Positions 1,222 through 36,669 of a stretch of DNA of 64,000 bases are shown here, in pieces. The stretch lies in NCBI RefSeq assembly GCF_026339735.1, contig NZ_JAPEQG010000002.1, positions 806,001-870,000 of the forward strand, written 5' to 3'. A program made the translations under genes and the position numbers. This stretch comes from Streptomyces sp. NBC_01669. GTDB lineage: Bacteria > Actinomycetota > Actinomycetes > Streptomycetales > Streptomycetaceae. How positions within the stretch are numbered: position 1 is the stretch's first letter; each line of letters begins with the position of its first letter. The notes under the pieces are model-generated. The model saw only the letters and a program-made list of their open reading frames with translations. It had not been told where the DNA came from and ran no database searches.

Positions 1222-1805
1222 GCGACTCCTCCCAGGCACTCAGCCCGGTTGATCGAACGAACAACAGCCACGAACAGCCCGGCCCCTTGGCTCCACTCCC
1301 ATTACAGGAGCTTCATCACTACTACGAACCGGTCCGCCAGCGGACCCCGACTCGGTACTCAGCCCCTTGTGGTTTCTGCCACTTGGGGCGCTCCCTTTCG
1401 CCCACCCGAGGGTTGACGGCATCGGGGCACGCCTTCTCCCGTTCCGTACGGAAGCGGCAGATCAGGATCACGTCGTCTACATGCCGGACACCACCTGGCC
1501 AATGAGCGGGTTCCCGCCAGACTTGTCCCGGGATAACTGCAACATCCCGGTTTTGATGTCAGCTGTTCGTGTTACGACACGTCAGCAACGATTCGCTTGC
1601 GCTCGTCTTCCTGATCCCTACCTGACGTCTCTTACGACGCCTTTTCCTCATCGCTCACCACGACGGTCTTCAATCCAACGCAGCATGAGGCGGTTTGAAG
1701 CCTCCCCCCGCAGGGCGACTTCGAAGGGCCTTCCTTCATCTTCCGCACAGCACCGCATCAAGTCGCTCTACCTACATAAAGCTTCCCTTCGCGTTCGGGA
1801 CACAC
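629..1805 (-). mobile_element. Group II intron A (5' part), inserted in intron B
   Basis: On the minus strand the intron begins GTGTG at 1805, matching the group II 5' consensus GUGYG. It runs through about 580 nt of domain I-type RNA sequence, closely similar to intron B (for example the shared stretches near 1700 and 3100), into a reverse transcriptase ORF. Its 5' junction interrupts the RT gene of intron B just after codons KTRIVYC. The IS4-type element cuts it at about 629. Domains V and VI are not in the window. Confidence 0.8.
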
Positions 1806-2622
1806 TGCAGTAGACGATCCGGGTCTTGGCCGGGTGCAGACGCAGCCCGACCTCCTCCATCCGGTTCCCGATCGCCTCCACCAGTTGCCTGGCCTGGCGC
1901 TCGCTGACGCAGTGCACGACCGCGTCATCCACATACCGCTCGAACGGGGCAGCGGGGAACTCCCGGGCCATCCACATGTCGAACGCGTAGTGCAGGAACA
2001 GGTTTGCCAGCACGGGCGATACCGCTGACCCCTGTGGGGTTCCCCGGTCTCGCTGCCGCAAGGTGCCGTCGGGCAGTTGGAGCGGCGCTCGGAGCCACCG
2101 CTCCACATACAACTTCACCCAAACGGCGTCGGTGTGAGCCTCCACCGCCTTGACGATGAGGTTCCAGGGGACGCTGTCGAAGAACTTCTGGATGTCCAGA
2201 TCGACAACCCAGTCTCTCTTCCACGCCCGCTCTCGGCATTTCTCCACCGCGTCCAGCGCGGACCGTCCAGGCCGATACCCGAAGGAATCGGAGTGGAAGA
2301 CTGGTTCCACCTCCCGCTCCAGCCGGGCGGCGACGACGGTTTGCGCGATCCTGTCCGCGATCGTGGGAACGCCTAGAATCCTGACCCCTCCACCATGCGA
2401 TTTCGGAATCTCCACCGCTCGCACCGGAGGTGGAAAGTAGCTGCCCGAGGACATCCGATTCCAGATCCTGTAGAGATTCCCCTTCAGGTTCTTCTCGAAT
2501 TCATCGATTGTGCAGCCGTCCACTCCCGGCGCGCCCTTGTTCGCCCTAACCTTCTCCCACGCCTCCCATACTTCCCACTTCGAGATTACGAACGACTTCT
2601 CCGACACTTTCAGCGCATCCAC
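1806..2622 (-). pseudogene. ltrA: Group II intron reverse transcriptase, interrupted by intron A
   Basis: Start taken at GTG 2622, preceded by GGGAGGAG. RT domain blocks are present: VRANKGAPGVDG, GVPTIADRIAQTVVA, DSFGYRPGRSALDA, WVVDLDIQKFFDSVPW, RDRGTPQGSAVSPVLANLFL and the catalytic FERYVDDAVVHC. The frame continues to RLHPAKTRIVYC and is then replaced by intron A's 5' end, giving a short out-of-family tail to a stop at 1768. Thumb and domain X are missing. It is about 75 percent identical by eye to the RT of intron A, so the two are distinct intron copies. Confidence 0.85.
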
Positions 2623-3212
2623 GCGACTCCTCCCAGGGAACTCCTGGTTGATCGAACGAATACAGCCACGGATGACCCGGCCCCTTCGCTCCACCTCCAT
2701 TACAGAGGCTTCGGCACTACTACGGGCCGGTCCGCCAGCGAGCCCCGCATCGGTACTCAGTCCCTCACGGTTTCCGCCGTTTCGGGACGCTCCCTGATTC
2801 AGCCCACACGGGAAGAACCACAGTGCTCGCCTTCCCACGTTCCACGCGAAAGCAGCAGACCAGGCTCGCGTCGCCTCCATGCCGGGCACCATCTGGCCAG
2901 TAGACGGGTGTCCGCCAGACTTGTCCTGGAGCCATATCTACACCCCCAGTTTCGATGCCGTCTGAATATGTTTTCGACACGTCGTCAGCGATTCGCTTGC
3001 GCTCGCCTTCCTGATCCCCACCTGACGCCTCACGGACGCCTTTTCCACATCGCTCACCACGACGGTCTTCAGCCAACGCGGCATGTGGTGGTTTGAAGCC
3101 TCCCCCCGCAGGGCGGCTCCGAAGGGCCTACCTTCATCTTTCACGCAGCACCACACTCTGAGAGGCACCTATCTCCGCATTTCCACGCCTCTTTCCTGTG
3201 TTCGTGGCACAC
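1806..3212 (-). mobile_element. Group II intron B (5' part), inserted in an IS3-type transposase gene
   Basis: Minus-strand intron starting GTGTGCCACGAAC at 3212, with a 5' RNA region (about 590 nt) homologous to intron A. It is inserted antisense into an IS3-type transposase gene whose codons resume at 3213. Its RT ORF is interrupted at 1806 by intron A, so it is an intron-in-intron arrangement. The 3' portion is not in the window. Confidence 0.8.
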
Positions 3213-26132: not shown

Positions 26133-26432
26133 GGAACTTCCTCTCTGTCGTCTGGCTTCAGGCTCGGCCCCGGGAAACAACGGAACAGCGGTTGGTGAGA
26201 AATGATGGATGCCCCACCTTGGTTCGGTTGAACTGGCTCTGTCCACGAGTTGCGGGTCGTCGTGGGAAGTCTTCGCGCTCCAGGACCAGCAGAAGATCAG
26301 CCGGGCCCGCGTGCTGCGCTTCGCGTCCGTGTACCGGGCGTTCGACACACTTGAAGACTTCGAGGCCGCCCACCGCTGCCCGGAATCGCTGAATTCGCCG
26401 AAGAAATCCTCGGACGGACCTTGTGAGGCTCG
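26133..26432. other. Interval without recognisable gene
   Basis: A plus-strand frame (26209-26484) and minus-strand frames overlap here, but none shows a ribosome site or family motif. It leads into the putative promoter of the small-ORF unit. Confidence 0.35.
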
Positions 26433-26455
26433 TTGTCAGTGGCGGCCCGTAGAGT
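26433..26455 (+). promoter_or_regulatory. Conserved TTGTC-N11-GTAGAGT block, promoter candidate, copy 1
   Basis: TTGTC (26433-26437) and GTAGAGT (26449-26455) recur with identical spacing at 35244-35266, in each case just upstream of the same RNA hairpin. TAGAGT is a good -10 for the main sigma factor; the -35-like TTGTC is closer than usual. Transcription would begin near 26462, shortly before the hairpin. Confidence 0.45.
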
Positions 26456-26492
26456 GGGCGCCGCCGACAGGCTCCGCTTCGTGAACGACGAA

Positions 26493-26547
26493 GGGAGACC
26501 CATTGCAAGGCCCATGCTTTGGACGGCTGGCCTTGCCTGGATCTCCC
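26493..26547 (+). ncRNA. Conserved leader stem-loop, copy 1
   Basis: Outer stem GGGAGA/TCTCCC (26493-26498 with 26542-26547), then CCA/TGG, inner stem GCAAGGCC/GGCCTTGC (26505-26512 with 26529-26536), and a 16-nt loop (26513-26528) containing TGCTTTG. The same architecture, loop length and TGCTTTG core recur at 35289-35345 and 27779-27832 with compensatory stem changes. It lies 51 nt before the GTG of the following small ORF, so it is probably a cis-acting leader. Confidence 0.7.
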
Positions 26548-26598
26548 TCTCGTTTCACGTCGTGGGCTGCCCATCCACTGCGAGGAGAACGGAACCCT

Positions 26599-26823
26599 GT
26601 GACGCCCTCTGACGGTACCCCAAGCCTCGGACACCGACACCGCCGCATCGCCTGGCTGCCCTGGACCATCGTGCTCGCGGCCCTCGGAACCGCAACCACC
26701 CTGACTCTGACCGGTCAGGCGCCGGCCGCCGTCCCAATCTTCGCGGCGCTCGCAGCACCAGCAGCGAGCTACCTCTTTGCTCGCAAGAGCAGTCCAGCCT
26801 GCAGCACGAACTTGCGCAGCTAA
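26599..26823 (+). CDS. Small membrane protein A (74 aa)
   Basis: From GTG 26599 (upstream GGAGAACGG) it encodes 74 residues: a polar N-terminus, transmembrane segment 1 (WTIVLAALGTATTLTL), a turn GQAPAAVPI and segment 2 (FAALAAPAASYLFA), then a basic tail ARKSS. The turn motif x-A-(V/I)-P is shared with three other small proteins nearby. It follows the leader hairpin and is followed by a terminator. Function unknown. Confidence 0.6.
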   Translation: MTPSDGTPSLGHRHRRIAWLPWTIVLAALGTATTLTLTGQAPAAVPIFAALAAPAASYLFARKSSPACSTNLRS

Positions 26824-26837
26824 GGGGCGATGCATGT

Positions 26838-26885
26838 AGCGGCAACCCATTCAAGGGCTGCCGCTCACGCGCGGGAAGTTTTTTT
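26838..26885 (+). terminator. Rho-independent terminator after small ORF A
   Basis: AGCGGCA (26838-26844) pairs with TGCCGCT (26859-26865), with an inner CCC/GGG, followed after a short spacer by seven Ts (26879-26885). Confidence 0.7.
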
Positions 26886-27035
26886 GTGTCCTCGGCGTCA
26901 CATCGGCCCCTCTCCACCCCATAACTAGGGCGCGGGGAAGCCCTTGCGCTCCAGGGCCATCAGCAACTTGCGTCGCTAGCCCGGTGCCGCTGTCTATTGA
27001 ATGCGGCCCCCGCATCTGATGGTCTGGCACCAGAC

Positions 27036-27070
27036 AACGCCCCGCCCATCAGCGGGGCGTTTGCGTTTCC
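27036..27070 (+). terminator. GC-rich hairpin with T-rich tail
   Basis: AACGCCCCG (27036-27044) pairs with CGGGGCGTT (27053-27061), followed by TGCGTTT. It looks like a rho-independent terminator that separates the small-ORF A unit from the next one. Confidence 0.7.
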
Positions 27071-27151
27071 TCACCACACCGGACCTCTGGTTCCGTGCGC
27101 TCAAAACCGAAACGACCAACGACGTGCCGTCGTAGGGGCCATGCCGCATCA

Positions 27152-27179
27152 GGCGGGGGTTGCGGAGCTAACCCCCGCC
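27152..27179 (+). promoter_or_regulatory. Perfect hairpin upstream of small ORF B
   Basis: GGCGGGGGTT (27152-27161) pairs perfectly with AACCCCCGCC (27170-27179) around an 8-nt loop, ending 47 bases before ATG 27227. It has no T-tract, so it may be an attenuator or mRNA-stabilising structure. Confidence 0.5.
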
Positions 27180-27226
27180 GCCCCCACCGTCCGGGTAGGA
27201 CCACTTTTTCTAACCAGGAGACCTCT

Positions 27227-27373
27227 ATGCCCACCGACCGCAGCAACATCGCTCTCGCCCTCATGGGCGCCGCGTTCCTGACCTACGTCGCCATCTCCAG
27301 CCCGGCCCTGATTCCCGCGATCGGGGTGGGGCTCAGCGCCTTCCTGGCGGCGCTGGCGTTCCTCAAGATGTGA
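27227..27373 (+). CDS. Small membrane protein B (48 aa)
   Basis: ATG 27227 has a good ribosome site (CCAGGAG). The 48-residue product has two hydrophobic segments (IALALMGAAFLTYVAI and IGVGLSAFLAALAFL) joined by SSPALIPA. It aligns without gaps with the 48-residue protein at 35523 (14 identities including P2, D4, AAF 15-17, Y20, P26, P30-A31, G33, L46-K47). The two are clearly homologous. Confidence 0.7.
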   Translation: MPTDRSNIALALMGAAFLTYVAISSPALIPAIGVGLSAFLAALAFLKM

Positions 27374-27503
27374 CGGCCGACAACCCCCAGCAGAACCAGG
27401 ACCAGGACAACGACGCCGTCAAAGTGGGTACCTCCCTGGAGCGGCATCCTATTCATCCCCTAATGTGGCTTTCTTCTCCAAGGCTTGTTGGGGAAGGGAC
27501 TTG

Positions 27504-27677
27504 ATGGACTCCATGGAGCGCACCGTCGTCCGCTGTGCCGAAGGGCACGTTTTCGCTACCACTTCGTTCCCGCTGCAGCAGCTCGGAGCCGGTCGGATCG
27601 GTCCCGGGAGGCTTATCCGCTGTCCGCGTTGTACCCGGTTGCGGCATGCCGTTCCTGTGGTGTTCGAGCAGCGGTAG
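27504..27677 (+). CDS. Small zinc-ribbon protein (57 aa)
   Basis: From ATG 27504 (GGGAAGGG upstream): MDSMERTVVRCAEGHVFATT...RLIRCPRCTRLRHAVPV. The C-x3-H...C-x2-C set fits a single zinc ribbon. Nearly the same small protein is widespread in Streptomyces as a hypothetical gene. Possible nucleic-acid or protein adaptor. It ends before the terminator at 27701. Confidence 0.7.
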   Translation: MDSMERTVVRCAEGHVFATTSFPLQQLGAGRIGPGRLIRCPRCTRLRHAVPVVFEQR

Positions 27678-27700
27678 AGGCGTCGGCAGACGGTTGCGCC

Positions 27701-27743
27701 AGAACGCGCGGGGCGGTCCGGTTGGGGCGGGCCCGCGCGTTCT
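27701..27743 (+). terminator. Strong hairpin after the zinc-ribbon gene
   Basis: AGAACGCGCGGG (27701-27712) pairs with its complement (27732-27743) over 12 bp. It lies 23 bases after the stop and just before RNA leader copy 3. Confidence 0.75.
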
Positions 27744-27778
27744 GCGTACTCTCAATGGGCGGACCCCAGTACGACTTT

Positions 27779-27832
27779 GGGGAGTCCTCGTGCTGCACCG
27801 ATGCTTTGCGGGCCAGGTGCTGAGGACTCCCC
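27779..27832 (+). ncRNA. Conserved leader stem-loop, copy 3
   Basis: Perfect 11-bp outer stem GGGGAGTCCTC/GAGGACTCCCC (27779-27789 with 27822-27832), small internal loop, inner stem GCACC/GGTGC, and a 16-nt loop (27800-27815) with TGCTTTG at 27802-27808. The stem sequences differ from copies 1 and 2 but pairing is kept, while the loop core is identical. It lies 56 nt before ATG 27889. Confidence 0.7.
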
Positions 27833-27888
27833 GGGTGGTCGTGGTTGGTCCTGTGTCCTTGCCGAACACTGAACTCACGGGAGCACGA

Positions 27889-28128
27889 ATGACTACCGCG
27901 ACCAATCACGACGGTACAGCAGGTGCAGAACCGCAGCAGAGCAGGCTGTCGGCGGCCGTCAAAGCCGTCGGCGCGCTAACGGCGATGCTGTCCGCTGGCG
28001 GAGCCTTGGTGCTCGCCGTCACTGGCCACACGGAGGCCATTCCTGCTGTGGCGGCGCTCGGGGCGGCTGGCTTTGTAGGAGGAGCCGCCCCCATCACGAT
28101 CAACATCATTAAGAGCACCAGGCACTGA
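27889..28128 (+). CDS. Small membrane protein C (79 aa)
   Basis: From ATG 27889 (GGGAGCACGA upstream), 79 residues: a polar N-terminus, transmembrane segment 1 (VGALTAMLSAGGALVLAV), the turn GHTEAIPA, segment 2 (VAALGAAGFVGGAAPITI) and a short basic tail. It shares the x-A-(V/I)-P-A turn with small proteins A, B and D. Preceded by leader copy 3. Function unknown. Confidence 0.65.
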   Translation: MTTATNHDGTAGAEPQQSRLSAAVKAVGALTAMLSAGGALVLAVTGHTEAIPAVAALGAAGFVGGAAPITINIIKSTRH

Positions 28129-28338
28129 AGGATCCGCCGCCGGGTACGCGTGCGGATCGATCGCGGATCGATCATGCCCTCGCGGCCGGTCCCTGGTAGG
28201 GGTTCCGGTAGCGGCGGCCGTGCTCAGGGCGAACCGCGTTTCACGAGTCGTTGCAAACGCCCGGACGGTTTGAAACCACCCACGAAACAGCGGCCGTGGC
28301 ACGTTCCGCTCGTATTCCGGTCCCACCCCATCAACACC

Positions 28339-28376
28339 CGCGCGACCCAATCATCACGTGACGATTGGGTCGCGCG
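28339..28376. promoter_or_regulatory. Palindromic operator 1 and promoter of the zinc-finger gene
   Basis: CGCGCGACCCAATC (28339-28352) and its complement (28363-28376) flank a centre containing TCACGTGA (28354-28361). A plausible promoter overlaps it: -35 GTGACG (28358-28363), 17-bp spacer, -10 TACGGT (28381-28386). The gene's own product may repress it; this is inference. Confidence 0.65.
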
Positions 28377-28395
28377 CCGGTACGGTGACAGCATC

Positions 28396-28413
28396 AATCA
28401 TCACGTGACGATT
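28396..28413. promoter_or_regulatory. Palindromic operator 2 of the zinc-finger gene
   Basis: AATCATCACGTGACGATT (28396-28413) is a second copy of the operator core, centred 47 bp from operator 1, between the -10 and ATG 28423. A third TCACGTGA lies inside the gene (28873-28880). Confidence 0.6.
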
Positions 28414-28422
28414 GGAGGCCTC

Positions 28423-29214
28423 ATGGCGACGTGCCCGGTCTGCCACCAGGACCTGCCCGCCCAGCGTGGCCCCCGTGCCCGCCGGTACTGCTCCCGCGCC
28501 TGCCAGGCCAAGGCATACCGGGCCCGGCAACAACAGCACTCCGGGCATCGGACCGCCGCGGCCGACGAACCCGAGCTGCTGCGGGAGTACGACAGCACGC
28601 CCTCACTCCAGCTTGCCGACCAACTGGCGCTCGCTGCCCGCAGGCTCGCCGGCGCCCTGACCGCCGGGCAGCCTGCCGACGACTTCGACATGGGCGTGGT
28701 GGCCCGCATCCCGGTCGTACTGGCCGCCCGCGCCCGACAGGCCGCCCCTGCCGCCCAGGCGGTGCACGGTCGCCCGGACAGCACTCCCGCCCCGAGCGTG
28801 ACCGTCGTCAACCTGGACGAGCAGCCGGTCAGCACCAGTACGACCGCAGACGCCCCCTCACCCGCTCAACCCTCACGTGACGAACCGAAGAAGGCGAAGC
28901 CCGCGCGCGCCCCGGCCCGACCACCGAAACTCTCCGAGAAAGCCGCCATGGCCGTCGTCGACGCGGCCCAGCTCAAACAGGACAAGGGAAGCGGACGCTG
29001 GGTCCTCCGCAGCAGTGACACCGTCCTCGGCTACGTGGAGCCGTCCTACGGCGGCACCTCCCGCTCCGGGCACAACGGATGGGTCGGCATGCTCTCAGAC
29101 TCCCTCAGCCCCGGCCAACGCTGCCCCACCCGCGAAGCCGCAGCCGTCGACCTCGCCGGGAGCTGGGTCCGCGTCGTCACCGCCACGCCCCGACGCACCC
29201 TCACCGGCGACTAG
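28423..29214 (+). CDS. Zinc-finger protein, copy 1 (263 aa)
   Basis: ATG 28423 follows GGAGGCC. The N-terminus MATCPVCHQDLPAQRG with RRYCSRACQAKAYRARQQQ is a CxxC...CxxxC zinc finger with an adjacent basic helix, common in Streptomyces plasmid-type proteins. A helical middle, a Pro/Ala/Thr linker (about residues 125-175) and a C-terminal compact domain follow. A second copy (44971-45762) differs in only two residues (Q/H and T/S near the C-terminus), and a stub lies at 36601. Two operator palindromes precede each full copy, suggesting an autoregulated DNA-binding protein. Confidence 0.65.
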   Translation: MATCPVCHQDLPAQRGPRARRYCSRACQAKAYRARQQQHSGHRTAAADEPELLREYDSTPSLQLADQLALAARRLAGALTAGQPADDFDMGVVARIPVVLAARARQAAPAAQAVHGRPDSTPAPSVTVVNLDEQPVSTSTTADAPSPAQPSRDEPKKAKPARAPARPPKLSEKAAMAVVDAAQLKQDKGSGRWVLRSSDTVLGYVEPSYGGTSRSGHNGWVGMLSDSLSPGQRCPTREAAAVDLAGSWVRVVTATPRRTLTGD

Positions 29215-29219
29215 GACCT

Positions 29220-30754
29220 CAACACCGTTGCGTTAGCGCCGTGAGCGGCTATTGAGGCCGTGGTCGAAGAACGCGACGGTGGTGCGGACGGTGTAGTTCT
29301 GGCTGGTCGTGGGGTGTTGTCCGGCGTTCGGTCCGTACTTGCTGGTGGGGTTCTTGCGGGTGCGGGCCTTCACTCGTTGCCGTCGGTGGGCGGGCAGGAG
29401 GGCGTCCAGGGCCGCGTGGCCGATCGTGCCGACCAGGTCGACGAGGGTGTTGGGGAAGATTCCATGGCCGGCGGTGACGGTGTCGGTTGCGGCGGCCAGC
29501 AGGACGGTGAAACTGATCCGTTCCATGGGTACTTCCGGCCGACCGGTCAGGGCGTCGTCGCCGGCGCGGATCAGAGCCTGGTAGGCGGTGAGCAGGGCGT
29601 AGACCTCCTGGTCGAGACCATCGATGCTGCGGGAGCGCAGGACGCGGCCGTCGAGCATCGTGGCCTTGATCGAAAAATACGTAGTTTCCGCCTGCCACCT
29701 GCGGTGATAGAGATCAACGAGCTCGGCGGCCGGATAGCGGACGGGGTCCAGCAGGTTGGTGATCAGCCGCCACTGCTCGGTGCGGACGGTGCCATCGGTC
29801 AAGGTGACGGTGAGGGTTGCCTCGATCACGCGTACCGGCAGCAGTACCCGCAGGACGCCGTAGCCGATGCGGGCGATGTAGGAGCCGTCGCCCAGGTGCT
29901 CGGCGGGGGTGGGGACACGGCGGGCCCCGGAGCGCACCAGGAACCGCGCCCCGCTCTGATGGACGGCATCAAGGAACTCGTTGCCGTCGAAGGCCGCGTC
30001 GGCCAGCAGGAGCATCGTCTTGTCCAGGGCGGCCAGAAGCCGCTTGGCATAGGGGAGTTCACCCTCGGACTCCGGTCCGAAGGCGGCGGCTATGAGCGCG
30101 CGGGTGCCGCACTCGACCAGGGTCAGCAGCCGTAGGAGCGGATAGCCGAACTCCAGACCCTCCCCGGCCCGTTTGGGGTAGCGCCAGGTGAGCGTCTCGT
30201 CGTCGGGGGTGTGCAGCAGGGTCCCGTCGACGGCCACCGTGCGCAGGCCCCGGTAGAAGGACCCGTCCTGACCGGGGCGGGCGACGGGCCCGGCCAGTGT
30301 CTCGAACAGGCGCCGCAGAGGTGCGGCCCCCACCCTGCGCCTGGCCCGCGTCAGCGAGGAGACCGCGGGACGCACCAGGGCCAGCGGGGTCAGGGCGGCG
30401 GTCAGTTTGGACCACACCGTGCGGTACGAGCGGTGCTCGAACAGTGCGAGAGCGAGCACGAAGTACACCACCACCCGCGAAGGCAGCAGTCGCAGGCGCT
30501 TCTCGCGCCGGCCGGTCTCCTCCAGCACCGCGTCCACCAGCGCAAAGTCCACGACCTGGGTCAACTCCCCCAGATGACCCGGCGCGAACACACCCCGGGC
30601 TGTCTCGATCGTGGACGTGATGACAGACTTCTCCTGCAACGGGATCCCTGACCTTGATCGACTTTCTTCGCCGATCGTTGATCTATCAGGTGGTCCCGTT
30701 GCGCTGTTCAGCAGGGCTTGACGTACAGCTCAGAGGTCAAACGCAACGGTGTTG
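29220..30754 (-). mobile_element. Complete IS4-family element with 10-bp target duplication
   Basis: Terminal inverted repeats CAACACCGTTGCGTT (29220-29234) and AACGCAACGGTGTTG (30740-30754). ACTAGGACCT occurs at 29210-29219 and again at 30755-30764, a 10-bp direct duplication typical of IS4-family insertion. The duplicated target includes the stop codon of the zinc-finger gene, so that gene is left intact. Confidence 0.92.
29233..30639 (-). CDS. IS4-family transposase, intact
   Basis: A 468-residue DDE transposase. Visible blocks: the N-terminal region of IS4 proteins (SSLTRARRRVGAAPLRRLFE), RTVAVDGTLLHTPD (first Asp), LLLADAAFDGNEFLDAV (second Asp), and LVDLYHRRWQAETTYFSIKATM (Y-x2-RW-x2-E...K, YREK signature with catalytic Glu). 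The apparent start is TTG 30639, so the exact start is uncertain. It encodes the enzyme that moves the element above. Confidence 0.92.
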   Translation of the reverse strand: MQEKSVITSTIETARGVFAPGHLGELTQVVDFALVDAVLEETGRREKRLRLLPSRVVVYFVLALALFEHRSYRTVWSKLTAALTPLALVRPAVSSLTRARRRVGAAPLRRLFETLAGPVARPGQDGSFYRGLRTVAVDGTLLHTPDDETLTWRYPKRAGEGLEFGYPLLRLLTLVECGTRALIAAAFGPESEGELPYAKRLLAALDKTMLLLADAAFDGNEFLDAVHQSGARFLVRSGARRVPTPAEHLGDGSYIARIGYGVLRVLLPVRVIEATLTVTLTDGTVRTEQWRLITNLLDPVRYPAAELVDLYHRRWQAETTYFSIKATMLDGRVLRSRSIDGLDQEVYALLTAYQALIRAGDDALTGRPEVPMERISFTVLLAAATDTVTAGHGIFPNTLVDLVGTIGHAALDALLPAHRRQRVKARTRKNPTSKYGPNAGQHPTTSQNYTVRTTVAFFDHGLNSRSRR

Positions 30755-30755
30755 A

Positions 30756-30930
30756 CTAGGACCTGTCCGGCCGATCTTGAAACTCCAGAAGAGCGGACGC
30801 CGACCCCGCCGCCACAGCAGCCCGGTAGCTCTCATCCACCAGGCGAACGAACTTCGCGAGTAGACCGGGGGTAGCGCCGAGGTAAGTCCAAAAGCCGCCA
30901 GTACTTGATCTTGGCGGGTGTGGTGCTCGG
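30756..30930 (-). pseudogene. C-terminal fragment of an unknown protein
   Basis: The codons FWTYLGATPGLLAKFVRLVD and ESYRAAVAAGSASALLEF end in a TAG contained in the IS4 target duplication. No start is convincing. Upstream to 31138 nothing else is recognised. Before the IS arrived it would have converged on the zinc-finger gene. Confidence 0.4.
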
Positions 30931-31138
30931 TCCGGCATCCACTGCCGCGGCCTCATCGCCTGAGCCCGGCCTGCTCCGCTGTACGATGCGCGGGCAGGCA
31001 AGTCGCGTACGCCTCCCGCCGTCACCCGCGCCCACGCCGCCAGATGATTGATCGGCCAAGGTCCTCCGGGGCCCGCTTCCCTTCCGGCATGTCCTTTGTC
31101 CGGCGGGAGCGTGGGAGACCGTCAGGAACGAGCAGCAG

Positions 31139-31603
31139 ATGCCGAAGAGGCAGTCCACCGCGGCGCAGAAGGCGCGCCTGCGTCAGTCCCTTACGGGCGA
31201 GAGCTACACGGAAGCGCTGCGGGTTGTGCAAGCCGCCTCATCGGGGCGGGAGCACGAGGAGCCCGAGGAGTACGCCATGCCCGTCTGTTGCCTGGCGGAA
31301 GAGGTTGTGGCCTCGGACGTGCGCGCGCGGTTCGACCAGGGCGGGGTGTCGGGGCTGCTGGCAATCCTGGAGGAGCTGCGCAAATCGATGTGGTTGCGTA
31401 GTCCGCACCACGACATCTTCAGCGGTCACGGGGTGCTGTTGGCCGTGAATCAGGTGTGCGATCCGTTGCTGCATCGGGTGTGGCTGGCAGGCGTCGTGTC
31501 GGAGCCACTGGCGTCCCAGGTGGAGCGGCGGCAGATCGCGCAGGCCGTGGACCGCTTGTGGAAGGCGCTCCACAGAGGGGAAGACGAAGAGCTCCGCGAC
31601 TGA
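31139..31603 (+). CDS. Mobile-element-associated protein with TGxSYTxALR motif
   Basis: A 154-residue protein starting MPKRQSTAAQKARLRQSLTGESYTEALR. This basic N-terminal motif recurs in many actinobacterial plasmid and integrative-element proteins and is probably DNA-binding. The rest is helical with no known domain. It is followed by the hairpin 31621-31658. Function unknown. Confidence 0.6.
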   Translation: MPKRQSTAAQKARLRQSLTGESYTEALRVVQAASSGREHEEPEEYAMPVCCLAEEVVASDVRARFDQGGVSGLLAILEELRKSMWLRSPHHDIFSGHGVLLAVNQVCDPLLHRVWLAGVVSEPLASQVERRQIAQAVDRLWKALHRGEDEELRD

Positions 31604-31620
31604 CACCTGCTCACCGCTCG

Positions 31621-31658
31621 GCGTCGACAGCGGAAGCGCATTCCACCGCTGTCGACGC
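31621..31658 (+). terminator. Perfect 13-bp stem terminator
   Basis: GCGTCGACAGCGG (31621-31633) pairs exactly with CCGCTGTCGACGC (31646-31658) around a 12-nt loop, 17 bases after the stop of the preceding gene. Confidence 0.8.
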
Positions 31659-31736
31659 GTTCTCCGGCTCCGCCGGTGCTCAACCCGCACCGGATTTACG
31701 GTATGGCTGACCGACGTCCGGCGCGTTCCGAGTCAG

Positions 31737-32363
31737 TCATGACGGCTGCCCGGCGAGCGCAGCCAGGCGCTCCACCTCGTCCCGACCGTTGTTACAGCAC
31801 CGCCCACACACGAGGCGGAGCCAGTTCGGCTTCTCGGGCAGCGGGATGACGAACGGCGCCCGATCCTCGTCGACGCGCTGGCGCAGGTCGTAGTCGCACT
31901 CCGCGCACATCAGCCTCGCCCGCCGGGCCTGCTTGACCGTCCAGGCCGGCCAGTCCGCCGCCAGGGCCAATCCCCTGACCGCCACGCCCTCGGCCCGCGG
32001 GTGAAAGACGGGGAAGCCGAAGCCCGGAAGGTCGTCCGGGATCTGCTCGATCGACTCCTTCAGTGAAGGCATCCACCGCACCAGGTGCATCAGGTCCTTC
32101 CCGGCGATCCGGACTTCCTCCCCGTACCGCATCTGCTGGCTGCGCGAGTTGGCCAGCGGGTAGCGGGCGGCTTTCACGATCACGTACGGCACCTCCAACA
32201 CGTCCAGGTCCCTGCCGATCTCCGCGGCGGTGGCCTTGAACTCGCCACAGTCGGCCTCCCGCCACAGCCCGAGCCCCTCGCCGTTGAGCACGCCGGAAAC
32301 CCTGACCGTGGGCACGATCCGCCGCTGCGCGGCCCGCGCCTCCGGAGACACTGCTGCTGTCAT
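31737..32363 (-). CDS. Hypothetical protein with C-terminal zinc-ribbon cysteines
   Basis: A 208-residue protein from ATG 32363 (MTAAVSPEARAAQRRI). It is mixed alpha/beta with no recognised domain until the C-terminus, where CAECDYDLRQ...LVCGRCCNN supplies two CxxC pairs for a zinc ribbon. Similar lone proteins occur in Streptomyces mobile regions. Convergent with the gene ending at 31603. Confidence 0.55.
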   Translation of the reverse strand: MTAAVSPEARAAQRRIVPTVRVSGVLNGEGLGLWREADCGEFKATAAEIGRDLDVLEVPYVIVKAARYPLANSRSQQMRYGEEVRIAGKDLMHLVRWMPSLKESIEQIPDDLPGFGFPVFHPRAEGVAVRGLALAADWPAWTVKQARRARLMCAECDYDLRQRVDEDRAPFVIPLPEKPNWLRLVCGRCCNNGRDEVERLAALAGQPS

Positions 32364-32594
32364 CGGCCTACCTCGTCTCGTTGCGGTGCCCCGGGAGGGC
32401 GCCATCCGTGCTGGTCGGCTCGTCAGCACTCAGCATCGCTGCGACGCTACCAACCCGCCCGCATCAACTCACACCCGTGTAACGCCTGGGCGCCCCGCTC
32501 CGTCTATGTAGTGACGCGCCCCCCGGCGCACCACCGCAGCAGGCCTCATCACCCGGGCTGCGGGCGCCGGCGGGCGCCGACTACTTCCGGGGCC

Positions 32595-32823
32595 CAGCCG
32601 AGATATGCGTCAAAGGGGCAACGGGGTGATCTTGGAAGTCGAACCGTCACAGTAAATACCGGATTTACTGCGACGGAGCCCCGGCCGTGATCACCGCGAC
32701 CTGCGGCGGGCCGTTCCGGCCGCCGGGGCGAGGTGTACGCATTTACTGCGGCGCCACCGTGCTGACCATGCGCTAAGCCGATTCAAGATCCACTCATTGC
32801 CCCGTTGACGCGTATCTCGGCTG
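32595..32823. repeat. MITE-like element with long terminal inverted repeats
   Basis: About 229 bp bounded by imperfect inverted repeats of roughly 40 bp, each beginning CAGCCGAGATA(T/C)GCGTCAA, then ..GGGGCAA...GATCTTG. It has no coding capacity. The inside includes the palindrome at 32650-32670. It lies 7 bp from the IS4-type element that follows. Confidence 0.65.
32650..32670. promoter_or_regulatory. Operator-like palindrome inside the MITE
   Basis: CAGTAAAT (32650-32657) and ATTTACTG (32663-32670) enclose a 5-bp centre; a further half-site ATTTACTG occurs near 32738. Such AT-rich palindromes in GC-rich DNA often bind regulators. Confidence 0.45.
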
Positions 32824-32830
32824 AACCCCC

Positions 32831-34297
32831 TTAGCCTCAATACCGTTCAGTTAAGTGCTTCTGGGTTATTGTTGGGGGATGCCGCGTTCTGGTTGGGTGA
32901 AGCCGTCTTCTGATGTCCGGTTGTCGGATTTGGTGTCTGTGGGGTTGCTGACGCGGGTGTTTCCCGCAGATGTGGTTGACGCGGTGATCGAGGAGGCGGG
33001 GCGTACTGAGCGGCGTCACCGGTCCTTGCCCGCGCGGGTGATGGCGTACTTCTCGATGGGGATGGCGCTGTATTCGGATGGCTCCTACGAGGATGTGTTC
33101 GCGCAGCTCACGGATGGGCTGTCGTGGGCGTCGGGGTGGTCGGAGTCGTTCACGCCGCCCTCGAAGTCGGCGATCTTCCAGGCCAGGGCTCGCCTGGGGT
33201 TCGAGCCGGTGCGGGATCTCTTCGCGCGGGTCGCGCGTCCGCTGGCGGGGCCGGACACGCCGGGGTCGTGGCTGGCCGGGCGTCGTCTGGTGGCGATCGA
33301 CGGGACGTGCCTGGACGTGGCAGACACGGCAGCCAACGCAGAATTCTTCGGGCGGCCCGCTTCCGGCCGGGGGGAGCAGTCCGCGTTTCCGCAGGCCCGC
33401 CTGGTGGCATTGGCGGAATGCGGCACCCATGCCGTCTTCGACGCTGTCACCGGCCCGTGCAGCGTGTCGGAGATCGAGTTGTCCCGGCAGCTCGTCGGTC
33501 GGCTGGAGCTGGGCCAACTGGTCCTGGCCGACCGGGGCTTCTACGGGTTCCGTCTGTGGCAGCAGGCCGCCGCCACGGGCGCGGATCTTCTCTGGCGAGT
33601 GAAAACGAACCTGCGGCCCCGGCATCTGGAAACACTGGCCGATGGGTCCTGGCTGGCCCGGATCGTCCCGACGTCGGGCACGAACCGGGCCACGACGCAG
33701 CCGCTCACAGTCAGAGTGATCGACTACACGGTCGATGACGGCCGGGACAACCCCGAGGAATACCGGCTGCTGACCACGATCCTCGACCCGGCCGACGTCG
33801 GCGCCGAGGACCTCGCAGCCGTCTATGCCCAACGATGGGAGATCGAGACAACCTTCGACGAACTGAAGACCCATCAACGCGGGCCCCGCGCGGTACTGCG
33901 CTCGAAAGCCCCCGACCTTGTCCAGCAAGAAATCTGGGGACACCTGTGCTGCCACTACGCCATCCGCACCCTGATGGCCGACACCGCCGCGCACACCGGC
34001 CAGGATCCCGACAGAGTCTCCTTCGTCAAGGCCCTCCGCATCGCCCGCCGTTCAGTCGCGCAGGGCGCATTTTCCCCCTCCGGGCACTGACACGGCCGAC
34101 GCGGCATGGTGTCACGCCATCCGATGGCTCACCCAACACCTCAACCCACCCCGCCGAAAACGCTCACACCCGCGAGTCGTCAAACGCAAGGTCCTGAAAT
34201 GGGCCGCGAAACGCTCCCACCACGCACACTGGCCCCAGCCCAAACACAGCCCCCACATCACCATCCGAGTCCACTAACTGAACGGTATTGAGGCTAA
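32831..34297 (+). mobile_element. Complete IS4-type element (relative of the window-start IS)
   Basis: Both ends carry the same inverted repeat (TTAGCCTCAATACC plus GTTCAGTTA, 32831-32853; complement at 34275-34297). Length 1467 bp. No clear direct target duplication is visible. The right end supplies the last residues and stop codon of the HEAT-repeat gene beyond it. Confidence 0.88.
32879..34277 (+). CDS. IS4-family transposase requiring +1 frameshift
   Basis: From ATG 32879 the zero frame encodes about 403 residues: RRLVAIDGTCLDVAD (first Asp), LVLADRGFYGFRLW (second Asp) and YAQRWEIETTFDELKTHQRG (YREK block with Glu), stopping at TGA 34088-34090. A +1 shift at TTT TCC CCC T (34070-34079) continues into PRRKRSHPRVVKRKVLKWAA and ends HITIRVH at 34277, just at the terminal repeat. 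The sister element shows the same shift and the same kind of basic tail, so the full product is probably the shifted one. Confidence 0.8.
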
Positions 34298-34720
34298 GCC
34301 TCTCCCGGCTGCCGAGGCTCGGCGAACGGCAGCGCGGAGTTCTTCGTCGGGCTCGTTCCGCCTGAGTACGGCTTTGAGACAAACTTGCGCTGCCGCCCGC
34401 ACATCGGGATCCGGGTCGGAGAGCGCGGCGGCGATGATCGGCGCGTGCGCCACGGCGTCGGGGCCGAAGATGCCGAGGCCCTCGATCCCTGCGCGCCGCA
34501 ACATCGCATCCTGTGCCGCAGTAGCCGCGACAAGTAGTTCCAGGGCCTCAACAGGTGCCTCCGCGCACAGCAGCGCCAGGCCAAACAGCGCCTGCTCGAA
34601 CTCTGCGGTGTCCTGGCGGGTGGCCGCGGCGAGCCGCTTGAGCGCCTCGCTCACCGCCGGCGGACAGACCGCACGAAGGCTGACCTCGTCGACCCGGGTT
34701 GGGGCGGTGTCGTCGTCCAT
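34298..34720 (-). pseudogene. HEAT-repeat protein, C-terminus truncated by the IS
   Basis: ATG 34720 begins MDDDTAPTRVDEVSLRAVCP. Helical repeats such as QDAMLRRAGIEGLGIFGPDA and SDPDPDVRAAAQVCLKAVL are HEAT-like. After residue about 141 the codons (LASIPFS, stop at 34274) come from the inverted repeat of the IS. The natural C-terminus is lost or shortened. Confidence 0.65.
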
Positions 34721-35229
34721 CCGGCCATCCTGCCAGCAACCGAAACCCGATTCCCAAAGCTGGGGAGCGGCCGGCCTGGCCGCAGCGAGCGACCTGCTGG
34801 GCCTTCAGGCTGCGGACAACGCGGCTCCGCGAGCCAGCCAGATGATCATTTGTCAGACACGGCCTAGCCCAACAAGGCGGCGTTGTTGCCCTCCAGGAGG
34901 ATGTTGTACGGCCACTTCGATGCCGCGGCGGCCGACGACGTCCTTGACCCGGTACGAGTCGGGCCACCCAAGCTGGCTCGCGACAGCGTTCTCCAAACAG
35001 CTGTCGAACGTGGCGAGCACCTTGTAGCGCGTGAGCTCGGAGATTTGGTCGTTGGCGCAAGACGACTTGGCCATCAAGGGCGCCAGGGGCGCCAAGCTCC
35101 TGATGCCGAAGTTCGAGATCGATCCCAACCCCGACGGCGATCTAGACAACCGCGTCGCCATGTCATTGACCGTACTAAGCGGGCATTTCGTACGGGCGTC
35201 TCCGTCCCCTCAACGCGCGACGGTACCCG
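34721..35229. other. Unexplained interval upstream of RNA leader copy 2
   Basis: No gene recognised. A minus-strand frame (34853-35161) includes WPDSYRVKDVVGRRGIEVAV but no family could be assigned. A 22-nt sequence at 35099-35120 is repeated exactly in the dnaE fragment (36279-36300). Confidence 0.35.
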
Positions 35230-35243
35230 GGAGTGCCCCTCGG

Positions 35244-35266
35244 TTGTCCGCCCTGGTCCGTAGAGT
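35244..35266 (+). promoter_or_regulatory. Conserved TTGTC-N11-GTAGAGT block, promoter candidate, copy 2
   Basis: Identical spacing and core to 26433-26455, again just before the leader hairpin. Predicted transcription start near 35273. Confidence 0.45.
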
Positions 35267-35288
35267 AATGCGGGCACGAAAGAACGAA

Positions 35289-35345
35289 GAGAGACCCACT
35301 GCAAGGCCGTTGCTTTGGCGGGCTGGCCTTCACCGCGGATCTCTC
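35289..35345 (+). ncRNA. Conserved leader stem-loop, copy 2
   Basis: Outer stem GAGAGA/TCTCTC (35289-35294 with 35340-35345), inner stem AAGGCC/GGCCTT, and a 16-nt loop (35309-35324) with TGCTTTG at 35311-35317. Against copy 1 the outer stem shows paired G-C to A-T changes. It is followed after 51 nt by GTG 35397, the same distance as in copy 1. Confidence 0.7.
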
Positions 35346-35396: not shown

Positions 35397-35429
35397 GTGA
35401 CGCTCTACGAAGTTATCTCACTGGTCTGA
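35397..35429 (+). CDS. Possible 10-residue leader peptide
   Basis: GTG 35397 is preceded by CGGAGAG and encodes VTLYEVISLV. It occupies exactly the position of the GTG-ACG start of small protein A in copy 1. It may be a remnant of that protein or a leader peptide upstream of small protein D. Confidence 0.35.
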   Translation: MTLYEVISLV

Positions 35430-35522
35430 CGCCAGCGCCCTTACGGCTCTGATCCGCAGGGTCTGGTTTCCATTCGATGCGCTCGGCCCGTGGTTCCGTG
35501 CGCCCAAAATCTGGAGTAGTCA

Positions 35523-35669
35523 GTGCCCAGTGACAAGCATGGTGGCATTCTATCTGCGCTGGTCGCAGCCTTCGCCTGCTACATCGGTTACGTCCATCCG
35601 AGCGCGGTGCCGGCACTCGGCCTCGCGGCCGCGGTGTGGGTGGGGATGTACATGTACCTGAAGCAATAA
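35523..35669 (+). CDS. Small membrane protein D (48 aa)
   Basis: GTG 35523 begins PSDKHGGILSALVAAFACYI. Two hydrophobic segments are joined by VHPSAVPA and the protein ends YMYLKQ. It has the same length as small protein B with 14 gap-free identities. A shared 19-nt element of the form TGGTTCCGTGCGC(T/C)CAAAA lies upstream of both genes (27088-27106 and 35491-35509). A terminator follows at 35741. Confidence 0.65.
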   Translation: MPSDKHGGILSALVAAFACYIGYVHPSAVPALGLAAAVWVGMYMYLKQ

Positions 35670-35865: not shown

Positions 35866-36495
35866 CTGCGGCTCGGTCAGTTCGACGAGGCGGTCCAGGC
35901 GGCCTCCGACTACAAGGACATCTTCGGCGAGGGCAAGTACTTCCTGGAGCTGATGGACCACGGCATCGAGATCGAGCGCCGGGTCCGTGACGGACTCCTC
36001 GAAATCGGCAAGAAGCTCAACATCCCGCCGCTCGTGACGAACGACTCGCACTACACGTACGCCAGCGAGGCCACCGCACACGACGCGCTGCTCTGTATCC
36101 AGACCGGCAAGAACCTCTCCGACCCCGACCGTTTCCGGTTCGACGGCACGGGCTACTACCTCAAGACGACGGACGAGATGTACGCCGTCGACTCCTCCGA
36201 CGCCTGGCAGCAGGGGTGCGCCAACACCCTGCTGGTCGCCGAGCAGATCGACACCAGCGGGATGTTCGAGAAGCGCGACCTGATGCCGAAGTTCGAGATC
36301 CCGGACGGCTTCACCGAGGTCACCTGGTTCCAGGAGGAGGTCCGGGTCGGCATGAACCGGCGCTTCCCGGGCGGCGTCCCCGAGGACCGGCAGAAGCAGG
36401 CCGAGTACGAGATGGACGTCATCATCCAGATGGGGTTCCCGGGGTACTTCCTCGTCGTCGCCGACTTCATCATGTGGGCCAAGAACAGCGGCTGG
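35866..36495 (+). pseudogene. dnaE: Internal fragment of DNA polymerase III alpha subunit (dnaE)
   Basis: The frame reads QFDEAVQAASDYKDIFGEGK, FLELMDHGIEIERRV, PPLVTNDSHYTYASEATAHD, ALLCIQTGKNLSDPDRF and MGFPGYFLVVADFIMWAKN, unmistakably the PHP/polymerase junction region of bacterial DnaE. Only about 210 of some 1,180 residues are present, with no start or stop, and it ends at the zinc-finger operator region. It is a stray duplication of a housekeeping gene or came with a horizontally acquired dnaE copy. Confidence 0.9.
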
Positions 36496-36520
36496 CATCT
36501 CAGGACCGGTGGGGCCCGCG

Positions 36521-36600
36521 CGGCCCGATCATCACGTGACGATTGGGTCGCGCGCCGGTACGGTGACAGCATCAATCATCACGTGACGATTGGAGGCCCC
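36521..36600. promoter_or_regulatory. Third copy of the zinc-finger operator/promoter region
   Basis: Both TCACGTGA operator cores with the intervening promoter (GTGACG, TACGGT) are nearly identical to 28339-28422. Upstream the sequence diverges: here CGCGCGGCCCGATC replaces the perfect left arm. Confidence 0.7.
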
Positions 36601-36669
36601 ATGGCGACGTGCCCGGTCTGCCACCGACCGTGGGGACCAGCGGTACAGCCGTTGGCGCTAAGGACTTGA
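36601..36669 (+). pseudogene. Zinc-finger gene, truncated third copy
   Basis: The first eight codons, MATCPVCH, match the full copies. After that the sequence diverges at 36625 and stops at 36669 after 22 residues. It is a relic left by recombination. Confidence 0.75.

Follow-up and report, generated by a model that had tools for sequence, protein, structure and literature searches.

A covarying hairpin family upstream of small hydrophobic proteins in Streptomyces

Three hairpins and the features around them

The stretch of DNA examined here (64,000 nucleotides of Streptomyces sp. NBC_01669, contig NZ_JAPEQG010000002.1, positions 806,001 to 870,000 of the forward strand; this whole stretch is called the window and is numbered from its first letter) carries three similar hairpins, each followed at a short distance by a small open reading frame (ORF). 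This contig, here called C4, is 1.24 Mb long and part of a Streptomyces genome of 10.8 Mb. Hairpin copies fall into two groups, A and B, split solely by the bases adjoining the hairpin; R1 is the covariance model described in the next section, and the folding z-scores compare each hairpin with its dinucleotide shuffles. The hairpins and their associated features, all on the forward strand, are as follows.

26433 to 26455, forward: predicted promoter of copy 1, TTGTCAGTG-N8-TAGAGT, 9/9 positions, an exact fit to the damage-inducible recA-type motif
26493 to 26547, forward: hairpin copy 1, group A; folding z -6.4; R1 71.5 bits, seed member
26599 to 26823, forward: GTG-start, 74-residue, two-helix hydrophobic ORF after copy 1, aligned with plasmid homologues
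26611 to 26618, forward: coding-region motif GACGGTAC of copy 1, TACCGT on the reverse strand, from the motif search
27227 to 27373, forward: 48-residue hydrophobic ORF beginning MPTDRSNIALALMG, a companion gene, with GGTTCCGTGCGCTC upstream at 27089
27747 to 27752, forward: -10-like box TACTCT of copy 2; damage motif 4/9, that is, none
27779 to 27832, forward: hairpin copy 2, group B; folding z -4.5; R1 49 bits, outside the seed
27889 to 28128, forward: ATG-start, 79-residue, two-helix hydrophobic ORF after copy 2, from alignment; AlphaFold2 helices 16-45 and 48-66, low confidence
27910 to 27917, forward: coding-region motif GACGGTAC of copy 2, from the motif search
35244 to 35266, forward: predicted promoter block of copy 3, TTGTCCGCC-N8-TAGAGT, 6/9, part of a window repeat
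35289 to 35345, forward: hairpin copy 3, group A, c3/L052 subtype; folding z -2.3; R1 62.7 bits, seed member
35397 to 35429, forward: 10-residue ORF after copy 3; the hairpin of plasmid locus L052 likewise precedes a 10-residue ORF
35409 to 35416, forward: coding-region motif GAAGTTAT of copy 3, with T and A kept, from the motif search
35523 to 35669, forward: 48-residue hydrophobic ORF beginning MPSDKHGGILSALV, after copy 3, with GGTTCCGTGCGCCC upstream at 35492

The original prediction, made from the letters of the window, had described the three hairpins with their stems and loops, and we confirmed both their sequence and their coordinates. The apical loop is 16 nucleotides long in all three copies, with TGCTTTG at loop positions 3-9, and it also contains a 3-base-pair mini-stem (GCU/GGC). 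The loop had been called invariant; among the 46 distinct homologues defined below, TGCTTTG is kept in only 12, and GCTT in 39. Copies 1 (26493) and 3 (35289) are close kin, forming a 64-base ungapped repeat of 78% identity, and copy 2 (27779) is more distant from both and lacks the TTGTC-N11-GTAGAGT block that precedes the other two. Start codons lie 51, 51 and 56-57 nucleotides 3' of the hairpins at 26493, 35289 and 27779, respectively, in agreement with the original prediction. The promoter block and the 10-residue ORF that had been assigned to the second copy both exist, with the numbering swapped (its '2' is the copy at 35289 and its '3' the copy at 27779), and the block proved to be a widespread promoter motif rather than one specific to the hairpin.

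Taken alone, copy 3 is weak (5 of 200 shuffles fold equally well). A chance resemblance among three GC-rich inverted repeats might be suspected on the grounds that the pattern was read off the same three copies, and that loose pattern matches arise by chance in relatives: 13 of 61 relatives, the own genome included, have one with at most one mismatch, and on folding none was convincing beyond the own genome.

Covariation and distribution of the hairpin family

The covariance model R1 (55 positions, 20 base pairs) has as its seed 11 hairpins that were picked, for clean alignment, from the 22 available at that point. At E<3e-6 over 44 loci it gave 49 matches, or 41 distinct rows, one of which (L071/L097, identical) was read on the wrong strand. 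Of the cells in the 20 pairs, 91.9% are paired (78.6 +/- 0.8% in shuffled and 36-57% in slid controls), 12 of the 20 pairs change on both sides (8.2 +/- 1.0 shuffled), double-change cells number 114 (43.4 +/- 6.1 shuffled), and the covariation score is 0.333 (0.122 +/- 0.010 shuffled, 0.03-0.06 slid). These numbers lean towards structure, since the alignment follows the model and its sequences are related; the slid controls preserve the relatedness. None of 500 shuffles equaled the observed pairing, two-sided pairs, double changes or covariation score. Compensatory changes exceed both kinds of control, as is characteristic of a covarying structured RNA element, and group-wise consensus folding returns the core and little beyond it.

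The hairpin family is a conserved fold with covariation, and the three hairpins are genuine members of one uncatalogued element. The strongest support for them is independent of the window, namely homologues elsewhere that carry compensatory changes. The original prediction had staked itself on a covariance-model search and on covariation, and on both counts it was borne out, by the number of matches and by the score given above; it had also known of no named RNA family with this loop, and no family of Rfam release 15 (4227 covariance models) reaches its gathering score at the window copies or at 19 plasmid loci. Chance, refuted by the R1 matches (including copy 2, outside the seed) and the covariation controls, we consider scarcely credible. 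The element is likewise undescribed in the literature that we searched by title and abstract start, with most subscription journals outside that search.

Every convincing copy is within Streptomyces. A blastn search with 26200-28420 against 72,556 plasmid records matched 41 of them, 38 of Streptomyces and 3 of [Kitasatospora] papulosa, which is assigned to the Streptomyces lineage; 18 of the 20 matches listed are to a hairpin region and 2 to 26895-27061. Over all blastn searches, at least 39 plasmid records have a hairpin-region match among the matches listed. R1 finds the hairpin at E<3e-6 in 26 of the 28 plasmid records fetched, twice each on CP133228, CP109353 and CP109180. The group A hairpin pattern occurs on 11 contigs, all titled Streptomyces, in a collection of 84,980 genome species. 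Within the genus, R1 matched 19 of 295 genomes at E<=0.1 (10 of them at E<1e-4), and within the class 5 of 296 at E<=0.01: the own genome, one solid and one weak, coding-like Streptomyces match, and two from other families (L113 and L114), which we rejected on inspection. The own genome has three R1 matches at E<=0.1, every one inside the window. Phage records gave no match by blastn, two hairpin patterns found nothing in viral contigs, and tblastn with a 69-residue query found no match in phage; the last is weak negative evidence, because the query scored only 45 bits on its own copy. When the 196-base copy 1 region was compared with 199 genomes by blastn, all matched at E<=1, most of the strong matches falling on query positions 7-41, which is the damage-type promoter block (the exact motif is present in 19 of the 29 loci L020-L048); the hairpin proper was matched in genomes G186, G202, G094, G027 and G211.

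For the counts that follow, 61 R1 matches were hand-picked, nine were removed (L080-L083 and L085-L088, low-scoring and coding-like, and L071, reversed) and duplicates were dropped, leaving 46 distinct copies, 27 in group A and 19 in group B. L100, L102 and L110 were kept by sequence likeness, R1 having scored only their opposite strand at threshold; L061 (22 bits) was kept despite its missing ORF motif; and L073 and L076 were placed in group B by the flank rule, their proteins resembling group A. Outside the 46 are L084, L091, L097, second weak places in L101 and L111, and L081, which was dropped and later recognized as real (it is L125). A protein-profile search matched 32 of 246 genomes at E<=0.01; on rescanning 18 of the 30 fetched protein loci (E<=1e-4) with the full model, we found a sense hairpin at E<=0.012 in 12 (L115-L119, L124-L127, L129, L131 and L132), a divergent match in L121 (sense E 0.12) and no hairpin in L120, L122, L123, L128 and L130.

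Small ORFs, a first-codon motif and damage-type promoters

The placement of the hairpins upstream of small ORFs extends from the window to the family: 45 of 46 distinct copies have a start codon 44-64 nucleotides 3' of the hairpin (25 of 26 in group A have it at 45-52), and a TANNNT box lies 28-43 nucleotides 5' of it in 43 of 46 (shuffles give 4.6 of 27 for group A and 3.6 of 19 for group B). Among 45 ORFs, 41 have at least 66 residues (one runs off its stretch), two have 10, one 28 and one 34. In most of them a short turn joins a hydrophobic helix to a second hydrophobic segment, and the C-terminus is often basic; AlphaFold2 likewise predicts two helices, at low confidence (mean predicted local distance difference test score 62). 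Short coding sequences (CDSs) are annotated at the ORF in 13 plasmid loci, two of them with another start, and five comparable ORF pairs have nonsynonymous divergence (dN) of 0.05-0.13 versus synonymous divergence (dS) of 0.18-0.33. Searches of the two-helix ORFs against Pfam, NCBIfam, PHROGs and PADLOC gave no convincing family: the best NCBIfam match was TraA (E 0.0021, 18.2 bits against a cut-off of 76.55), the best in PHROGs had E 0.031, and PADLOC gave none. The L077 ORF has several tandem SSSFTRHHGSPQQGDDPGPLTS repeats at its N-terminus, ahead of the hydrophobic part. A second small gene family occurs near the hairpin genes, encoding 48-residue hydrophobic proteins behind a common upstream GGTTCCGTGCGCYC (at 27089 and 35492, and also at L052, L079 and L103); at copy 3 and at L052 the hairpin is followed by a 10-residue ORF and then by a 48-residue hydrophobic one.

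This arrangement bears on two readings in which the ORF would be incidental. The hairpin could act at the DNA level, where a plasmid protein engaged in transfer, replication or partition would bind it in cruciform or single-stranded form, with the ORF a mere neighbor; the restriction to one genus, often on plasmids, the proximity of some copies to genes for MobF relaxases, partition proteins or ATP/GTP-binding proteins, and the lack of a strand preference in folding are all compatible with this. We nevertheless hold it to be improbable, given that the hairpin keeps one orientation and nearly one distance relative to the ORF in 45 of 46 copies, and given the -10-like box just 5' of the hairpin, the presence of more than one copy on some replicons, and dN below dS in the compared ORF pairs. 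A separate trans-acting small RNA, with its promoter upstream of the ORF by happenstance, would account for a compact hairpin directly after a promoter box, but no T run of an intrinsic terminator follows the hairpin (by a terminator scan for copies 1 and 2, and by sequence for copy 3), and such an RNA would leave unexplained both the linkage to the ORF and the motif inside it described next; we give this reading very little credence.

The first codons of the ORFs share a nucleotide motif, GA[AC]NGTA. The middle codon of an N-terminal [DE]-[GRSV]-[TI] ends in T in 45 of 45 ORFs of this analysis, a figure that is partly selected, the ORF frame having been picked partly by the nucleotide motif; elsewhere third-position T is rare (142 of 1036 Gly/Arg/Ser/Val codons in the same ORFs, and 12 of 113 in the first 14 codons). 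Among independently annotated plasmid CDSs, 21 were examined and the 20 with the peptide motif all have third-position T (the start of the 21st, L060, lies beyond the motif). Read on the reverse strand, the motif is TANNNT in 45 of 45 motif-bearing copies, as the motif search itself demanded, and no conserved -35 element was found upstream of this reverse box among them. The nucleotide motif appears to travel with the hairpin and not with the peptide, because the divergent hairpin copies L121, L125-L127, L129 and L131 retain NGTA or AGTA in the first codons, and L120, the one informative exception, has no hairpin and encodes DRT as GACCGCACT, with the box lost. A third-position A is also frequent in the codon that follows the motif Thr (33 of 45, for example at 26611-26618 and 27910-27917).

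Upstream of copy 1, TTGTC-N11-GTAGAGT reads TTGTCAGTGGC-GGCCCG-TAGAGT. The UV-inducible recA promoter of Streptomyces rimosus is TTGTCAGTGGC-N6-TAGggT (PMC2375139), the mycobacterial RecA-independent damage motif is tTGTCRgtg-8 nt-TannnT (PMC5656591), and in S. coelicolor RecA-NDp promoters precede damage-response genes and a UV-inducible gene (PMC5087735). A simple reading in terms of PafBC is weakened by a published report that the M. smegmatis PafBC motif did not appear to be conserved in S. venezuelae in an initial search (PMC9380542). Scored against the RecA-NDp motif TTGTCRGTG-N8-TANNNT, copy 1 matches at 9/9 positions, copy 3 at 6/9 and copy 2 at 4/9. The own genome contains TTGTCAGTG-N8-TANNNT 35 times and a reversed control pattern not at all. 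The next ORF, scanned for 20 of the sites, is a DNA-metabolism gene at six (recA, DNA polymerase beta clamp, O6-methylguanine methyltransferase, a helicase with a UvrB-interaction domain, a DEAD helicase and Thy1), belongs to other families at eight and has none at six. The 41 bases of 26425-26465 recur identically before the thymidylate synthase (Thy1) gene on contig C3; we rejected this C3 block as the recA promoter, since it precedes Thy1 and recA has its own site (L152). The sites (including G000:C3:2700775-2700797 at recA and G000:C3:2741690-2741712 at Thy1) outline an apparent damage regulon, in which some precede genes of unassigned function and an IS605-type OrfB gene (L161); identical TTGTCAGTGGCGCCAGCTATGTT is found at C4:68283, C4:304512 and C3:8890938, perhaps within a mobile element.

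Beside the box, the motif reaches at least 7/9 in 7 of 27 group A copies (control mean 0.22, maximum 2) and 1 of 19 group B copies (control mean 0.27, maximum 2), and the divergent L121, outside the 46, has it exactly. Because only these match, damage control fits a subset only. The transcript of copy 1 would start from a damage-inducible recA-type promoter, and likewise that of some other copies.

The conjunction of a damage-type promoter, a structured leader and a small hydrophobic protein is reminiscent of tisB/istR of Escherichia coli. The features described above might accordingly be read as a module like a type I toxin-antitoxin system, in which a reverse promoter in the first codons drives an antisense RNA that silences a membrane-active peptide until damage; the antisense RNA would cover the start codon, the ribosome-binding site and the hairpin, so that complementary hairpins meet. 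Several observations are in keeping with this: a reverse TANNNT in 45 of 45 motif-bearing copies (required by the search), the third-position T in annotated CDSs and our own ORFs alike, the loss of the reverse box in hairpin-less L120, the damage-type promoter at copy 1 and seven other copies, the antisense hairpin being about as stable as the sense one, the presence of different copies on one plasmid, and the small hydrophobic products, predicted membrane proteins such as type I modules encode. The reverse box, however, comes without a conserved -35; different plasmids retain the same loop core, whereas antisense pairs as a rule diverge; the ORF has a hydrophilic N-terminus of a kind not known from classic type I toxins; and the motif could instead serve the sense RNA or a DNA-binding protein. 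On balance we regard antisense control as a serious rival, though less likely than not. An extension of it, in which the hairpin and GA[AC]NGTA are the two ends of one sense/antisense switch, making up a new family of damage-triggered, tisB-like membrane-peptide modules on Streptomyces plasmids, with several different copies per plasmid and a common loop read by a host factor, seems to us unlikely.

A proposed leader acting in cis and its relation to known systems

We favor, and hold to be somewhat probable, the reading that the hairpin is the structured 5' leader of an mRNA for a plasmid-borne small two-helix membrane protein, controlling it in cis and damage-inducible in a subset of copies. 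The order of the elements, their spacing and the covariation support an RNA leader acting in cis: as in a leader, the hairpin sits at a set distance from the genes of one family, between their promoter box and their ribosome-binding site. At copies with the recA-type promoter, a DNA-damage signal would act as the switch for transcription and the leader as a gate on translation. The transcript would start approximately 25 nucleotides before the hairpin; in most group A copies its first bases, CCCTTC, could pair with GAAGGG in competition with the 5' strand of the outer stem (21 of 27 group A copies have CCCTT[CT] directly 5' of the hairpin), and this would release the 3' strand, TCTCCC, to cover the GAGGAGA ribosome-binding site, which the full hairpin would leave open. 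A shared factor may bind the largely conserved GCTT...GGC loop and so choose the state.

When the 5' half of the hairpin is deleted in silico, predicted openness of the ribosome-binding site falls in 22 of 26 group A copies (mean from 0.49 to 0.36), and in group B the mean openness of the start codon goes from 0.51 to 0.39. We take the competing 5'-arm switch as a hint from predicted thermodynamics. Tests of pairing at P1, at P2, between loop and ORF and between ORF and leader yielded no consistent support; low values for P1 in group A (14 of 2000) and for the outer strand with the ribosome-binding site (24 of 2000) came from a misfiled grouping and are not relied upon.

The following results count against the cis-acting leader or parts of it. 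A fifth covariation measure, further pair types, was not raised (322 of 500 shuffles), and the aligned sequences, all of a single genus, lack independence. The damage motif is missing before most copies (it is present in 8 of 46 at 7/9 or better, and 20 of 27 in group A fall short). Ribosome-site openness on deletion falls in only 10 of 19 group B copies, and covariation is absent from the 5'-arm pairing (627 of 2000 permutations were as good in group A and 753 of 2000 in group B, in a test with 4 group B copies misfiled as A). Finally, neither strand folds consistently better, the sense strand being ahead in 8 of 27 group A and 11 of 19 group B copies.

Among the ORFs scanned around the hairpins, several code for transposases, for a resolvase, for an integrase and for a reverse transcriptase. 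C4, which has 5 of 6 TrwC-relaxase matches and 3 of 14 ParA-like matches in the genome, may be a megaplasmid or plasmid-rich replicon; the five 16S rRNA genes are all on C3, and so are all 11 FtsK/TraB-like matches, with none on C4, so these last are no help to a plasmid reading of it. Within the window, a 111-base direct repeat (97%; 28337-28447 and 36515-36625, about 8.2 kb apart), with CAATCATCACGTGACGATTG-like palindromes, encloses two IS4-type transposase genes and copy 3, and a DNA polymerase III alpha fragment lies at 35953-36669 within the mobile region. The intergenic stretch 26895-27061, with a terminator-like hairpin at 27043-27059, is conserved on plasmids NZ_CP109563 and NZ_CP108024. 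Two matches to group II intron D1-D4-2, at 1620-1737 and 3020-3135 (reverse strand), are about 1.4 kb apart, with a reverse-transcriptase ORF (1768-2892, reverse strand) between them, possibly marking tandem or nested introns.

We class the element as a new family within the known kind of structured mRNA leaders. It shares a conserved RNA secondary structure with the families of Rfam 15, none of which reaches gathering score here. The promoter of copy 1 fits the RecA-NDp or UV-inducible recA promoter exactly, a motif found also before recA and repair genes of the own genome, and missing at most hairpin copies, including all but one of group B. Two-state leaders, such as riboswitches and attenuators, are likewise 5' leaders, with a possible competing hairpin and, as in group A, ribosome-site pairing; unlike them, this element has no evident ligand-binding core and no terminator, and its competing pairing lacks covariation. 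Spd genes cluster with tra genes and encode the spread proteins, which are also small hydrophobic proteins of Streptomyces plasmids; the hairpin-led genes carry their own leader, and it is on this description that they are set apart from Spd. ANTAR-target RNAs have paired short stem-loops with six-base loops. They are, like this element, actinobacterial hairpin leader RNAs (PMC8164766), whereas this one is a single long two-tier hairpin with a loop of approximately 16 bases. With the type I modules hok/sok and tisB/istR (PMC6563280 and PMC3919570) the element shares a small hydrophobic protein and a structured leader, together with a damage-type promoter in some copies and possibly a convergent antisense promoter; it differs from them in its two helices and hydrophilic N-terminus and in a loop core conserved across replicons.

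Streptomyces plasmids hold many tiny genes annotated as hypothetical proteins, and a common RNA leader unites a set of them, some of which are linked to the DNA-damage response; the covariance model allows further members to be found. The rank of the finding would rise if the antisense reading were true, because mobile elements of the main antibiotic-producing genus would then carry a type I-like system linked to DNA damage.

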